DNA of 36,855 nt. Source: Pseudomonadota bacterium (GTDB lineage: Bacteria; Bdellovibrionota; Bdellovibrionia; Bdellovibrionales; JACTMU01). Under the pieces are notes generated by a model. The model saw only the letters and a list, made by a program, of their open reading frames with translations, made no database searches and had not been told where the DNA came from. Every line of letters begins with the position of its first letter. Position 1 is the stretch's first letter. The stretch lies in the NCBI GenBank assembly GCA_014584465.1, contig JACTMU010000028.1:1-36855 (forward strand). Reading direction: 5' to 3'. Of the stretch, positions 24,049-30,175 are shown piece by piece. The position numbers and the translations under genes were made by a program.

Positions 24049-25035
24049 ATGAAAAGAGTCATGAGAAGAGACGACCCTTCAGAGATGCCCTTTATTATGT
24101 TTGCCCCCATGGAAGGCGTTATGGATCACACCACTCGTGCGGTCTACTCGTCGCTCGGTGGATTTGACCGATTTGTCACCGAGTTTGTAAGAGTGACCGA
24201 CAAAGTTCTTCCCGCTTCGATCTTTCACCGCTACTTACCAGAACTCAGGAATGGCAGCAAAACCCTTGAGGGTGTCCCTGTGTTTCTGCAACTTCTCGGC
24301 GGCAATCCAGAACTTTTGGCAGAAAATGCCCATTTCGCCACTCAACTTGGCGCTTGTGGAATCGATCTCAACTTTGGCTGCCCATCTCCAACCGTCAATC
24401 GTCATGATGGGGGTGCCTCTTTGCTTAAGGAACCCCATCGCCTCTTTGATATTGTCTCAGCTGTGCGCAGACGAGTTCCTCAAGCCATTCCAGTGACAGC
24501 TAAGATTCGCCTAGGATTTTCTGATAAGAACAAAGTTCTTGAAATTGCCAAAGCCATTGACTCCGCGGGAGCAACGGAATTGACCGTTCATGCACGAACA
24601 CGTGATGAGGGCTACCGTCCACCGGCTCACTGGGAATTCATTGCCATGATCAAAGAGGTCATAGATATTCCAGTCATTGCCAATGGAGAAATCTGGTCCG
24701 TCAAGGATTTCCTCAACTGCCAACGCATCTCAGGATGCAACCGATTTGCCCTTGCCCGCGGTGCTTTGGCGACGCCGGACCTCGCTTTACAAATACATGA
24801 GCAGGCAACCCACCAAACCTCAACGCCCATCACCTGGGAGAGCGTTCGCTCAGATGTGTTGGCCAAGTTCATTCAAAGTCTCCAATCCACCGCCCCTTCA
24901 CCCTCTTTTGTTGTTTGCCGAACCAAGCAGTGGCTGAGTCATTTGGGACGAGGATATCCTGAGGCCAAGTCCCTCTTTGATTCAGCCAAACGGGCCCGCA
25001 CTATGGATGAGATCCTGCCATTGCTACTGAGTTGA
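24049..25035 (+). CDS. dusC: tRNA-dihydrouridine synthase, DusC-like
   Basis: This 328-residue FMN enzyme reduces uridine to dihydrouridine in the tRNA D-loop; DusC of E. coli acts at position 16. The N-terminal APMEGVMDHTTRAVY (19-33), TEFVRVTDKVLPASIFH, QLLGGNPELLAENA and IDLNFGCPSPTVN (C111 is the catalytic cysteine) follow DusC closely. VHARTRDEGY, IPVIANGEIW and the C-terminal RTKQWLSHL segment also match. No good Shine-Dalgarno sequence precedes the ATG at 24049, and the first 13 residues are not conserved, so starts at the fifth or thirteenth codon are possible. Confidence 0.92.
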   Translation: MKRVMRRDDPSEMPFIMFAPMEGVMDHTTRAVYSSLGGFDRFVTEFVRVTDKVLPASIFHRYLPELRNGSKTLEGVPVFLQLLGGNPELLAENAHFATQLGACGIDLNFGCPSPTVNRHDGGASLLKEPHRLFDIVSAVRRRVPQAIPVTAKIRLGFSDKNKVLEIAKAIDSAGATELTVHARTRDEGYRPPAHWEFIAMIKEVIDIPVIANGEIWSVKDFLNCQRISGCNRFALARGALATPDLALQIHEQATHQTSTPITWESVRSDVLAKFIQSLQSTAPSPSFVVCRTKQWLSHLGRGYPEAKSLFDSAKRARTMDEILPLLLS

Positions 25036-25071
25036 TCACATATATTTGTATATTCGAACTATAGATTTATT

Positions 25072-25100
25072 TTGAGACAAGATAACTTATTGTTTATACA
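25072..25100 (+). promoter_or_regulatory. sigma70-type promoter of the lipoprotein-TIGR02147 cassette
   Basis: TTGAGA (25072-25077) and TATACA (25095-25100) are exactly 17 bases apart in an AT-rich gap. Transcription would start near 25107, giving a leader of about 157 bases before the gene at 25264. Two copies of TGATCACAT flank the promoter at 25033-25041 and 25129-25137, and could be regulator sites. Confidence 0.6.
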
Positions 25101-25263
25101 TGTCTTTTTAATATTTCTACATCTATTATGATCACATTTGTGAATTCTTATGGAAACTTCCGATCTTTTCAGTAGAATGAATGTAGAGGCAAAAGAAACA
25201 TTGAACCGGATCAAAATCATCAAAGATGATGACAGATCCTGGATTAAACCAAGGAGGAAAATC

Positions 25264-26145
25264 ATGGACGTTTTAGAAAAAAAGAAGAAAGAGAAGATCG
25301 GAATCATGGAATCAATGCTGGGGCTTGCAACCTTTTCATTGGCAGTTGGCGGCTGCTCTTTAGGAAGCAACCAAGACCAACCTGTTGTGGCAGCAGCCCA
25401 AACATCGCTCTACTTAAGCGGCAGTGCCCAGCCGACCACGGTCGCTAAAACATTTCCAACAATACTGCTGGAGGCACTGCTCCCACAGGCAAGCGCCCTA
25501 ATCCCCAGCTCCCTCGTCGACTCCCAGGACCATCCCGTGGTGCTCAACTTGGCATGGATGGCTGTCAAGGAGATCGAGTTCAAATCGGAAGAGTCGGGCA
25601 CAACTGGAGAAGAGAGTGAGGTGGAGTTTCAAGGACCCTACTTCGTGGATCTGCTTTCCGTAAATCCTTCACCGCTCGACACCAGCCAAGTGGCTATAAA
25701 GGACATTCGACGAATCAAAATGAAACTTGAGCCCGCTGGCGAGAATACGGTCCCAGTGGATGCTCCGGCCGAACTTGCAACCAACAGCATTGTGCTTACG
25801 GGCACAGTAGGCGGCGTCAATTTCACCTACATCTCAGATGATGGATCTGAGTACCAAGTCTTTGGTGGTCAAGCCATTCGACCTGAGGACGGCGTCGATC
25901 TGCTGCTCTCAATCCGACTTGCAGATGTTTTGAGAAAAATAGATTTGACCGCCATATCCACAACCACCACGATCTCTTCATCAAATCGTGTTTCTGCGGC
26001 GACCGCTTGTCCTCTCATTGATGCAAGCGCTGAGGATCTCTACACCTGCTTTCGTAAGGGTCTTGAGCAAGAGGCCGATTTCGGCAAAGACACAGATGGT
26101 GATCATGAGTTGGGATCTGATGACGAAGATGTTGAGGTTGAGTGA
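25264..26145 (+). CDS. lipoprotein, DUF4382-like, paralogue of the gene at 26987
   Basis: This 293-residue surface protein has a signal region containing GLATFSLAVGGC with a probable lipidated cysteine. Its middle part resembles DUF4382-type proteins: AWMAVKEIEF, FQGPYFVDLL and IKDIRRIKMKL. The C-terminus has a conserved ASAEDLYTCFRKG segment and a very acidic tail (DTDGDHELGSDDED) that looks like a calcium-binding loop. Large parts align by eye with the gene at 26987, so the two are paralogues. The ATG at 25264 has AAGGAGG upstream; the frame is open back to 25150 but without a ribosome-binding site. The stop overlaps the next start by one base (TGATG). Confidence 0.75.
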   Translation: MDVLEKKKKEKIGIMESMLGLATFSLAVGGCSLGSNQDQPVVAAAQTSLYLSGSAQPTTVAKTFPTILLEALLPQASALIPSSLVDSQDHPVVLNLAWMAVKEIEFKSEESGTTGEESEVEFQGPYFVDLLSVNPSPLDTSQVAIKDIRRIKMKLEPAGENTVPVDAPAELATNSIVLTGTVGGVNFTYISDDGSEYQVFGGQAIRPEDGVDLLLSIRLADVLRKIDLTAISTTTTISSSNRVSAATACPLIDASAEDLYTCFRKGLEQEADFGKDTDGDHELGSDDEDVEVE

Positions 26146-26990
26146 TGGCTTTGCATTCTCAAGAAGAGCGACCCAATGTGTTCAGCTATCATAACCACCG
26201 AGAATTTCTTAAAGATTGGATCGCTCATCTTAAGAAACAGCAGAAAAAGATGTCCCTGCGGGAGATTGCCCGCAGGGCTGAATTTGCCGACGGCTACCTA
26301 CCGATGGTTCTTACAGGCAAACGACGTTTGAGCAGCAAGGCCCTTGAAAAGATGCTCCCACTTCTAAAGCTTACACTTTCCGAGCAAAAATTCCTAAGAC
26401 TCTTGTGGGTCGTTTCCGAATCTGACTCCATTGATGAGCGTAAAGAGACCCTTAAGAAAATGCAAAAATTTTCTCAATATCAAGAAAACAGCACCAAAGA
26501 GATTGAGGTCTACCAATACTTGGTACACTGGTTTTACGTCGTCGTTCGAGAGCTCGTCAGGGTCAAAGGCTTTTCCGAAGACCCTAAATGGATTCAATCA
26601 CTCTTCTATCAAAAGCTCTCCCAACAGGAGATCAAGGACTCATTGGACTTTCTTAAAGCCCGGGAGTTCTTGAAATGCGATCCCAACGGGTCCATTTCAC
26701 AAAATCAAAAGCCGCTTGAGTGCAAAGAGGGGGTCTACAAGGTTTCCCTGGGCTCCTTTCACAAACAGATGCTGACTCAGGCAATCAGATCCATTGAAGA
26801 GGTGCCCAGTCAAGATCGCCTGATCATGGGCCACACTGTGGCTCTATCTCAAGAAGATTGCGAGAAGTTTAAAAAAATGGCCGAGGATTTTTTTAAAACG
26901 ATCTCGGTTCAAGCCCCTATTGGTGAACCTGAAAGAGTCTACCACATGGCATTGAACTTTTTTCCCATTACCAAGGAGCACGTTTCATGA
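26145..26990 (+). CDS. TIGR02147/DUF4423-family regulator
   Basis: The 281-residue cytoplasmic protein fits the TIGR02147 family, expanded in Bdellovibrio and Fibrobacter. It starts with the family's FSYHNHREFLKDWI, followed by a helix-turn-helix-like region (SLREIARRAEFADGYLPMVL, then TGKRRLSS). The C-terminal DUF4423 part includes VPSQDRLIMGHTVALSQEDC and ERVYHMALNFFPITKE, both typical. It has no signal or membrane segment. The start overlaps the upstream lipoprotein stop (TGATG) and its end overlaps the next lipoprotein start (ATGA), so it is coupled on both sides. The family is presumed to regulate transcription; its neighbours are the likely targets. Confidence 0.85.
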   Translation: MALHSQEERPNVFSYHNHREFLKDWIAHLKKQQKKMSLREIARRAEFADGYLPMVLTGKRRLSSKALEKMLPLLKLTLSEQKFLRLLWVVSESDSIDERKETLKKMQKFSQYQENSTKEIEVYQYLVHWFYVVVRELVRVKGFSEDPKWIQSLFYQKLSQQEIKDSLDFLKAREFLKCDPNGSISQNQKPLECKEGVYKVSLGSFHKQMLTQAIRSIEEVPSQDRLIMGHTVALSQEDCEKFKKMAEDFFKTISVQAPIGEPERVYHMALNFFPITKEHVS

Positions 26991-27865
26991 ATCATTTAAG
27001 TTATCGTTTCAATTTACAAACGTTTCTTATATCTATGATGATATCCCTATTCTTAATTTCATGCCAATCCAACAGTGATGGTGGCACGACCACTGGCAAT
27101 CCCGTTACGGTTGGTTTTGCAGTTGCCGGAAACAGCCAAGTCACGAATGTCACAAACTCCTTTAGGTCCATCTTGGATTTGAAGCACCTCTTTGACTCTC
27201 TCTTTCTCAAAGTGGCTCAAGCGGCCATTCTACCCATGAATCTCCAAGACCTTTCGGGACTTACAGTGACCGTGACGGAAGCCTGGGTTGGAATCAAGGA
27301 GGTCGAATTCAAAGTCGAACAAGTCAATGATGGAACGGACGAAATTGAGATCAGATTTCAAGGCCCCTACATGGTCAATCTCCTGGAATCCTCACCGGAA
27401 CTCTTGGCAACAGGGACCATTTCACAACAGACCTACAAACGAATTCGAACCAAGCTTTCACGAGTCGAAGATCTCCCATCGGGTGCCCCCTCTGAACTTC
27501 AAACAAACAGTCTCTATCTTGCGGGTACAATTGGACCTTACTCATTTTCCCTATCTTCAAATGACGAAACGGAATTTGAAGTCGCCGGCGAAAATGGCAT
27601 AACACCCCAGAACAACCGAAATCTCCTTGTGGTCATGAACCTTGCAGATCTCTTCAGAAAGATCGACCTTTCTGTGATCACATCCGACACAAACATCAAT
27701 GAAAATAGCCGCTTTGACACATCGAACGTTTCCAAGTGCACGGCAATTGATCCAAGCGCCCACGATCTCTACACCTGTTTTCGTAATGGAATTGAAAGTG
27801 AATCCAATTTTGGTCAAGACGACGGTGACTTTGATCTAGACGAAAATGATGAAACTGTTAAATAG
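26987..27865 (+). CDS. lipoprotein, DUF4382-like, paralogue of the gene at 25264
   Basis: This 292-residue protein has a clean lipoprotein signal ending LFLISC (C26), then SNSDGGTTTGNPV. It shares with its paralogue the blocks GIKEVEFK (KEIEFK there), FQGPYMVNLL, YKRIRTKL, LQTNSLYLAGT, LADLFRKIDL and DPSAHDLYTCFRNG, and a short acidic tail (DDGDFDLDENDE). The segment encoding DLYTCFR is close to identical at the DNA level in the two genes. AAGGAG lies eight bases before the ATG, which overlaps the regulator's stop. A surface role in binding or adhesion is plausible but not shown. Confidence 0.78.
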   Translation: MNHLSYRFNLQTFLISMMISLFLISCQSNSDGGTTTGNPVTVGFAVAGNSQVTNVTNSFRSILDLKHLFDSLFLKVAQAAILPMNLQDLSGLTVTVTEAWVGIKEVEFKVEQVNDGTDEIEIRFQGPYMVNLLESSPELLATGTISQQTYKRIRTKLSRVEDLPSGAPSELQTNSLYLAGTIGPYSFSLSSNDETEFEVAGENGITPQNNRNLLVVMNLADLFRKIDLSVITSDTNINENSRFDTSNVSKCTAIDPSAHDLYTCFRNGIESESNFGQDDGDFDLDENDETVK

Positions 27866-28000: not shown

Positions 28001-30175
28001 TTAGGATACCCCAACGTACTTGGCCACTGTGGAAAGAAGCACTTCCTTAGCCACGGGCTTAGTAATATGGGTGTCGCACCCAGCTTCTATACTACGCTCA
28101 AGATCCTCTTTTAAGGCGTATGCAGTAAGTGCTATGATCGGAATTCGTGGCCTCTTTTGCTGAACTTCCCATTGTCGTATGGATTGAACAGCTTCATGAC
28201 CATCCATTAATGGCATTTGAATATCCATAAGAACTAGGTCATATGTGTGATTCATGTACTTATCTACTGCTTCGATTCCATTCTTCGCATAATCCAAATC
28301 TACAGGACACTTTCCCAAATATGCACTGATGAGCAGTTGATTGTCCTCAGAATCATCTGCCAATAGAATCTTGGTGGATCGAGCCCAAAGAATCATCTGT
28401 GGGTTCAGCGCAACAACTCGACTGTAATCACCCTCGGATCCCTCGCTTACCTTTTCCAACTGAACCGTAAAAAAGAAGGTGCTCCCGATTCCTACATAAC
28501 TTTCAAGACCAATCTTTCCGCCCATCAACTCAACAAGCCTCTTGGAAATTGCCAAACCAAGACCCGTTCCACTGATACCTCTCACTTTTTGCGCCTCACC
28601 TCGATGAAAACTTTCGAAAATTGATTGACACAGTTCGTCTGGAATACCTACCCCTGTATCCTTGACCACAAACTTAAGAGCAATGGTTTCATCTTGCTCA
28701 CTGATGCATTCAACGAAAACCTCCACGCCTCCTCGATGAGTGAATTTGATCGCATTTCCGATCAAATTCACCAATATTTGCTTCAAACGATTCGGGTCAC
28801 CACGTAATAAAAATCTATCAAACTCACTCCCAAGATAGCCAAAAGACAAACCTTTATCTTCAGCTAACTGTTTCATCAAGGGCTCGATATCACCCATCAA
28901 TCCACCAAGAAAGAATTCCTCGCCTACTAAATCGATCTGTCCCGAGTTAACTTTCGAAAAATCCAAGATATCATTGATCACGTGCAGAAGGTTTTTCCCG
29001 GCATTTTGAAAAATTCGAACAAATTTCTTTTGTTGCAAATTCAGTTCTGTTTCACCAAGTAGTGAAGCCATTCCCAAGATGGCATTCATAGGCGTTCTTA
29101 TTTCATGACTCATATTTGCTAGAAATTCTGACTTAAATCTTGACGACGTTTCCGCCGACTTCAATGCTTGCTTTAACGACTCTTCAAGTGATCGAAATTC
29201 TGTAATATCTGTATGCAAAGAAACAAGCGATTCGACGTTGCCGTCCGGATCTAACATTGGAACCACGGTGAGCCTTACATTAAAATGACTCCCGTCCTTA
29301 CGTCGATTGAGAAGCTCACCTCCCCAATTTTCTCCCGACAGAACTGTCTGCCAAAGATTTCGATAGAACTCTCTAGACTGAAGACCGCTTTTCAATATGC
29401 TCGGTTTCTTTCCAAGAACTTCACTCGATTCATAGCCTGTCAACTTCGAAAATCCAGGGCTCACAAATCGAATGACACCTCGAGTATCAGTCATGACAAT
29501 GGCCTCTCCCGCTGCCTCTACCATGGCTGCATAAGCTCGAACTCGTTTCTCAACATGACGCAACCTCGTAATGTCGACCCCGTAAATGTTCACGATCTTT
29601 CCAGAAAAGATTCTCTGTAAAATCCTTACATCCTCAACTTGATAGGCAATCTCAGTCACCGATCGAAAAATCTGCTCAATCAAAAGTGTGTACTCGGCGA
29701 TGAGTTCAGTATGAGAAATCTTTCGACCAACCACATTTTCTCTTAAGTTTTGAAACCTATCACGGCTCTTAAGCAGATCTCTGATGGTCATTTGTATCGA
29801 TGGTTTCAAATAAGAAAACGATGGTGAATTGACGAACTCTCCAAGTCTCTTCATTTCGTCATCTGTTACGATCCATTGATCTTCAAGTACTGGTCCAAAC
29901 TCGCCCACGACGGAAGCCAAGAACATCGTTGAGTAACCCCGTTCAATTTGTATTTCATGGGCTAAATTCGACAGTCGAATTGCACTTTGAGACTCCATTC
30001 CTACTTGATCCATTTTGGCGATCACATCCAAACCAGGAACAATCTGTTGACTTAGAAAATAGAGAGAAAGAAGAAGGGGGCTTGCCACAATGAGTGCAAG
30101 CTTGGCTTGAAAACTCAAATCCCCTAACCACTTCATGAATGATTTAATAGCTTTATAGAGCCTATGGTGTTTCAT
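28001..30175 (-). CDS. hybrid histidine kinase with NIT-like sensor and PAS (HisKA-HATPase-REC)
   Basis: This 724-residue kinase has one membrane segment at about 26-45. The region 60-200 resembles a NIT (nitrate/nitrite-type) helical sensor, with LAHEIQIERGYSTMFLAS at 71-88, but is shorter than usual. A PAS domain (about 213-328), HisKA with H357 in FLANMSHEIRTPMNAILGMA, an ATPase domain (about 455-575: NLIGNAIKF, DTGVGIP, GTGLGL) and one receiver (about 600-720, D651) follow. Neither a second membrane segment nor HAMP is visible, which is odd for a NIT kinase. The kinase core and receiver closely resemble those of the kinase at 517-2682. It stands alone, with a dyad (AGTATT/AATACT, 30203-30217) just upstream of its ATG. 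Confidence 0.92.
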   Translation of the reverse strand: MKHHRLYKAIKSFMKWLGDLSFQAKLALIVASPLLLSLYFLSQQIVPGLDVIAKMDQVGMESQSAIRLSNLAHEIQIERGYSTMFLASVVGEFGPVLEDQWIVTDDEMKRLGEFVNSPSFSYLKPSIQMTIRDLLKSRDRFQNLRENVVGRKISHTELIAEYTLLIEQIFRSVTEIAYQVEDVRILQRIFSGKIVNIYGVDITRLRHVEKRVRAYAAMVEAAGEAIVMTDTRGVIRFVSPGFSKLTGYESSEVLGKKPSILKSGLQSREFYRNLWQTVLSGENWGGELLNRRKDGSHFNVRLTVVPMLDPDGNVESLVSLHTDITEFRSLEESLKQALKSAETSSRFKSEFLANMSHEIRTPMNAILGMASLLGETELNLQQKKFVRIFQNAGKNLLHVINDILDFSKVNSGQIDLVGEEFFLGGLMGDIEPLMKQLAEDKGLSFGYLGSEFDRFLLRGDPNRLKQILVNLIGNAIKFTHRGGVEVFVECISEQDETIALKFVVKDTGVGIPDELCQSIFESFHRGEAQKVRGISGTGLGLAISKRLVELMGGKIGLESYVGIGSTFFFTVQLEKVSEGSEGDYSRVVALNPQMILWARSTKILLADDSEDNQLLISAYLGKCPVDLDYAKNGIEAVDKYMNHTYDLVLMDIQMPLMDGHEAVQSIRQWEVQQKRPRIPIIALTAYALKEDLERSIEAGCDTHITKPVAKEVLLSTVAKYVGVS

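Follow-up and report, generated by a model that had tools for sequence, protein, structure and literature searches.

Twin upstream sites and a predicted two-residue recognition code at a putative autoregulated operon of two sister lipoproteins and a TIGR02147 regulator

The window, as the whole analysed stretch of 36,855 nucleotides is called here, contains at 25264-27865 three genes on one strand in the order lipoprotein A - regulator - lipoprotein B. Very probably they form a self-contained operon that encodes two sister surface lipoproteins and is autoregulated: the regulator would bind twin sites ahead of the first gene and use residues 53 and 54 to read site bases 3 and 5. The following elements were located.

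25033..25040, + strand: putative distal operator half-site TGATCACA, 96 bp upstream of the proximal site and forming with it the only exact twin in the genome
25072..25100, + strand: promoter-like TTGAGA-17-TATACA, between the two sites, absent from the scan list; the weaker promoter candidate
25129..25144, + strand: putative proximal operator TGATCACATTTGTGAA, near-palindromic, with the twin element at 25129-25136
25151..25178, + strand: TGGAAA-16-TAGAAT, promoter-like, directly following the proximal site; the preferred promoter candidate on account of its conserved position
25251..25257, + strand: AAGGAGG, ribosome-binding site of lipoprotein A, as read from the sequence
25264..26145, + strand: lipoprotein A (lipoA), 293 aa, lipobox Cys31, DUF4382-like core, C-terminal Cys pair and acidic EF-hand-like loop
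26145..26990, + strand: TIGR02147/DUF4423 regulator of 281 aa with Pro53-Met54 in its helix-turn-helix region
26987..27865, + strand: lipoprotein B (lipoB), 292 aa, lipobox Cys26 followed by a GTTTGNP tag, DUF4382 above the cut-off

Organization and conservation of the cassette

The initial annotation described paralogous lipoproteins around a TIGR02147/DUF4423 regulator with overlaps at both junctions, and all three genes were confirmed. The stop codon of lipoA overlaps the start of the regulator gene in TGATG, and the end of the regulator gene overlaps the start of lipoB in ATGA. Since the AAGGAGG element precedes 25264, the start of lipoA was placed at the ATG at this position; the first ATG of the longest ORF, at 25150, is probably not the true start. 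A gene for a hybrid sensor kinase (28001-30175, minus strand; NIT, PAS, HisKA, HATPase and receiver domains) is convergent with the cassette and is generally not a neighbor of it in other genomes.

Homology between the two lipoproteins, which had been chosen beforehand as a point on which the proposal could fail, was detectable (37% identity over 289 aa, E 6e-61), and the blocks KEIEF/KEVEF, FQGPY, RKIDL and DLYTCFR were found in both, as had been described. They are the sole two members of their family in the window genome. LipoB passes the gathering cut-off of DUF4382 (PF14321; 28.6 bits versus 25), whereas lipoA fails it with 17.4 bits; because its homology to lipoB is clear, lipoA is counted as a relative of the DUF4382 family and not classed as a member. 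The paired family is thus homologous to DUF4382 but differs from it in that lipoA and the short lipoproteins described below score under the cut-off and in that the long family has an extra Cys-pair helix and the EF-hand-like loop. Canonical DUF4382 proteins of the order are mostly encoded at loci other than the cassette.

LipoA and lipoB each have a signal peptide and a lipobox cysteine and were classed as putative bacterial lipoproteins; we infer that both are exported. The lipobox cysteine (C26 of lipoB) is aligned and invariant in all 22 long proteins. At the C-terminus of the long family, a Cys pair is invariant and is accompanied by an acidic, EF-hand-like loop, which makes calcium binding reasonable to consider. 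AlphaFold models calculated from few sequences were poor (pLDDT 53 for lipoB, 57 for the regulator), and Foldseek searches with them gave no significant match. A match to MbnP (E 0.42) was weak and was set aside, and a sequence search for solved relatives returned weak HTH matches and nothing further.

To follow the cassette beyond the window, 141 genomes of the order were surveyed. Ten other genomes clearly encode the long lipoprotein, always as two copies, and the order A-regulator-B is maintained in every one of the 11 genomes that have the long pair, that of the window included. Together with 29 further cassettes recovered from regulator loci within the order (L114-L152) and outside it (L183-L222), 40 lipoprotein-regulator-lipoprotein cassettes were collected across the phylum, which bears out the expectation of a conserved neighborhood in related genomes. 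A second, shorter lipoprotein pair occurs in the same layout, and these shorter proteins are homologous to the long ones (hhalign 98.4%).

Lipoproteins of this kind also occur singly: family f12/g105 consists of lone lipoproteins without an adjoining regulator, and lipoprotein genes of the family with no regulator next to them were seen at L093-L098 (G225, G236, G241, G243, G245). At L133 (G050:C183), the second cassette copy of its genome, a TAA stop interrupts the regulator gene, and both lipoproteins and the twin sites are retained.

Twin sites upstream of the first gene

The distal site at 25033..25040 and the stop codon of dus, the gene upstream, overlap. At the proximal position no more than two mismatches to TTCACAnnTGTGAA were found in 10 of the 11 long cassettes, and in nine of the 11 the region upstream of A contains a pair of TCACA-type sites at a distance of 94-96 bp, against at most two in any one spacing bin when the long cassettes were shuffled; in the first cassette set the motif was recognized post hoc. 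Across the 40 dual cassettes, an identical TGnTnAC pair, of the form TG(A/T)T(C/T)AC and with 60-120 bp between its members, is present in 23, while shuffles yielded a mean of 0.04 and a maximum of 1 of 40. Among 1024 pattern classes TGnTnAC ranked best with these 23 cassettes, the next class reaching 10. The spacings found were 64, 74-75, 88 and 93-98 bp, mostly the last, with 74-75 or 88 bp in some clades; 88 bp is not a whole number of helical turns. Most of the 17 cassettes without an identical pair have a single concordant site or a variant, and four (L137, L188, L190 and L198) have neither a twin nor a single concordant site.

In an order-wide scan, the exact twin in its W-form occurred once in the window genome and once in genome G004, each time upstream of a cassette. 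About two thirds of all W-form matches in the order lie away from cassettes, many in coding-like sequence, and these look like chance occurrences. Upstream of 56 other TIGR02147 genes, no convincing excess of twin direct repeats at 93-98 bp was detected, and we therefore confine the twin-site claim to the clade of the cassette and its closest relatives.

The clear promoter noted in the initial annotation, TTGAGA (at 25072) and TATACA (at 25095), sits between the conserved sites, and TGGAAA/TAGAAT at 25151-25178 is favored as the promoter candidate. With a loose search, a -10-like hexamer was found 32-33 or 43-46 nt from the start of the proximal site in most of the 11 long cassettes. Within the coding sequence of lipoB, TGTGATCACA at 27673-27682 fits the operator half-site on both strands, possibly by chance.

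Covariation of regulator residues and site bases

In the 23 cassettes with an identical pair, the identity of two bases in the site follows that of two residues in the adjacent regulator. Proline at position 53 goes with A at base 3 (10 of 10) and serine, asparagine or threonine with T (13 of 13), while methionine at position 54 goes with C at base 5 (17 of 17) and any other residue with T (6 of 6), so that both rules hold in 23 of 23. Regulators with Pro53 are found with TGATCAC and those with Ser, Asn or Thr with TGTTCAC; where Leu or Ser replaces Met54, TTAC replaces TCAC. For the regulator in the window, Pro53-Met54 is predicted to set the site TGATCAC. In the regulator alignment the Pro53 column is the only one that splits both site classes perfectly, and shuffled labels split as well in 1 of 1000 cases.

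The code was fixed in writing before 40 further loci were retrieved, and the sites located upstream of the held-out dual cassettes fit it; with single sites included, 31 of 31 were concordant. Seven specificity changes were counted on the tree (6-7 in bootstraps), of which well-supported branches force only two independent ones, and for this reason a phylogenetic sign test cannot reach significance. The only site at L192 (Pro-Leu) is TGATAAC, in which base 3 is consistent and base 5 is neither C nor the predicted T. L205 and L208 have the predicted TGTTTAC and an additional TGATTAC. Single TG(A/T)T(C/T)AC matches were also seen upstream of other-clade regulators (L212, L216, L220 and others).

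Taken together, the twin sites and the residue-base covariation favor the earlier suggestion that the regulator controls its partner lipoproteins, and we infer that, by binding the twin sites, it regulates the operon that encodes it. The N-terminal helix-turn-helix of the regulator would bind the twin TGATCAC elements, which lie 96 bp apart ahead of the first gene, and residues 53 and 54 would read bases 3 and 5; as the AlphaFold models were poor, we assume the geometry of the helix-turn-helix on the basis of weak HTH similarity. Because the spacing is nearly constant, at about nine helical turns in most clades, we would guess that two bound dimers touch, perhaps by DNA looping, and so set transcription of A-R-B. 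The tight overlap of regulator and lipoB would couple regulator output to lipoprotein output. Our guess is that the regulator acts by repression, relieved by a cytoplasmic signal.

Autoregulated operons with two spaced operators and DNA looping are known from regulators of the lambda CI and Lac repressor type. The cassette resembles these in having the regulator gene inside the operon and two similar upstream sites on the same helical face. It differs in that the sites precede a lipoprotein gene pair and in that their spacing is kept across genera at about 95 bp; looping is putative here.

Regulator family and its exported partners

The regulator is a member of the TIGR02147/DUF4423 (PF14394) family, well over both cut-offs: it matches TIGR02147 with 156.7 bits (curated cut-off 50) over model positions 2-271 of 272, and DUF4423 with 118.4 bits (gathering cut-off 30). 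TIGR02147 has 16 matches in the window genome and about 19 genes in G004. An exported protein is encoded directly downstream of the TIGR02147 regulator, usually with an ATGA overlap, at 36 of the 39 loci sampled in the order (L114-L152) by our reading of the neighborhoods, and likewise at 38 of 40 outside it (L183-L222). In G004, where signal peptides were called by a simple hydropathy rule, an exported partner lies within 30 bp of 11 of the 19 TIGR02147 genes, compared to 26 of 269 in the background (P 1.3e-6, inflated by the relatedness of the counted partners).

Soon after the signal peptide, 75 of the 91 partners carry GxxxGN[PGS] or a similar GN motif, versus 3 of 131 other exported proteins; the P-value of 5e-39 is overstated, as the motif was found by eye and the partners are related, and the contrast is still large. 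Such a tag is present in 1 of the 11 A lipoproteins. It may serve sorting or feedback. Among partners such as those at L121, L123, L134, L135, L136, L138, L124 and L125, an unusual [FYW]Q[NAS]C that resembles a lipobox is frequent (YQNC, FQNC, FQSC, WQAC). In G004, non-lipoprotein partners (L057, L058, L059, L060 and L063) start with a GNGG-type motif after the signal peptide, often with a Cys next, e.g. WVGNGGNVISC.

The frequency of exported downstream partners, far above chance in G004 and nearly universal in both sampled sets, and the tag that otherwise unrelated partners have in common could also be explained if the regulator were a receptor for its exported partner, bound by unexported precursor or by a re-imported piece of lipoB, so that the operon would sense its own export. 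The model for this would be the RRNPP regulator-peptide systems PlcR-PapR, Rgg-SHP and ComR-ComS, which likewise combine a cytoplasmic HTH regulator with a gene for an exported product directly after it. Here the product is a full-size protein and peptide import is purely hypothetical: the partners are proteins of 114-630 aa, and beside the regulator in the window, with partners of 293 and 292 aa, no short exported pro-peptide was found. A Pfam scan of the regulator, for which the AlphaFold model was poor, detected DUF4423 and a weak HTH and no TPR family, and the match of a G004 regulator to AimR covers the HTH only and is far under the cut-off. Since, further, the tag may serve sorting and the interrelated partners inflate the P-value, we regard sensing of export as unlikely. 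It is similarly doubtful that TIGR02147/DUF4423 regulators and their downstream exported proteins make up a widespread two-gene sensing module that reads the GxxxGN tag or a piece of the partner, reports on export or the outside, and uses a two-residue operator code.

Inheritance of the cassette and further alternatives

The genes around the cassette differ between genomes, except among a few close relatives. This, and its patchy presence, might suggest a mobile or selfish element that is kept through horizontal transfer and not for a shared function. Neither a recombinase nor terminal repeats were seen, and the trees of A, regulator and B broadly agree. A and B form separate clades, with the window B weakly placed; together with the regulator tree this indicates that the duplication is old and that the unit was inherited together. 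Moreover, payload pairs exchange while the layout and the putative operators persist: the two lipoproteins at L114 come from an unrelated family but are 57% identical to each other in an unchanged layout, and have been replaced as a pair. A mobile element is thus an improbable explanation.

The twin sites could instead belong to an unrelated global regulator, with the TIGR02147 protein a passenger or acting elsewhere. The sites are short, promoters often carry sites for global regulators, and TGTGA/TCACA look like half-sites of Crp/Fnr, although their order is reversed and their spacing differs. Sites of a global regulator should be present at many promoters, and the exact twin is found a single time in each of the window genome and G004; in 23 of 23 cassettes, moreover, bases 3 and 5 covary with positions 53 and 54 of the neighboring regulator. 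We consider this reading highly improbable. Least probable of all, and very remote, is the switch between two surface proteins suggested by the initial annotation, in which the regulator would alternate their expression: paralogues do flank one regulator in many genomes, but A and B are co-oriented members of a single closely packed operon whose twin sites are found upstream of A only, no inverted repeats suitable for phase variation were found at the cassette, and the direct repeats shared by A and B reflect their paralogous coding sequences.

Implications for the TIGR02147/DUF4423 family

In the literature search, which took in only a minority of subscription papers, no mention of TIGR02147 or of an assigned target of the family was found, and nothing relevant was found on the GxxxGN tag or on lipoprotein-regulator operons of this kind. 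DUF4423 was met once, for Bd3700 in a table, a gene up 2.67-fold during growth in prey (PMC12546842). A link between the cassette and Bd3700 was rejected, as a rough calibration on YkuD genes places Bd3700 at about 3.58 Mb but the cassette close to Bd372x; Bd3719-Bd3724 are named in no paper found.

TIGR02147/DUF4423 regulators are numerous in Bdellovibrio-like bacteria, and the favored reading of the cassette as an autoregulated lipoprotein operon adds to this family a candidate target site with two residues predicted to recognize it, and a partner rule. If it is right, the operators of other members would become predictable, and the exported proteins under their control would form a defined set of regulated surface proteins.
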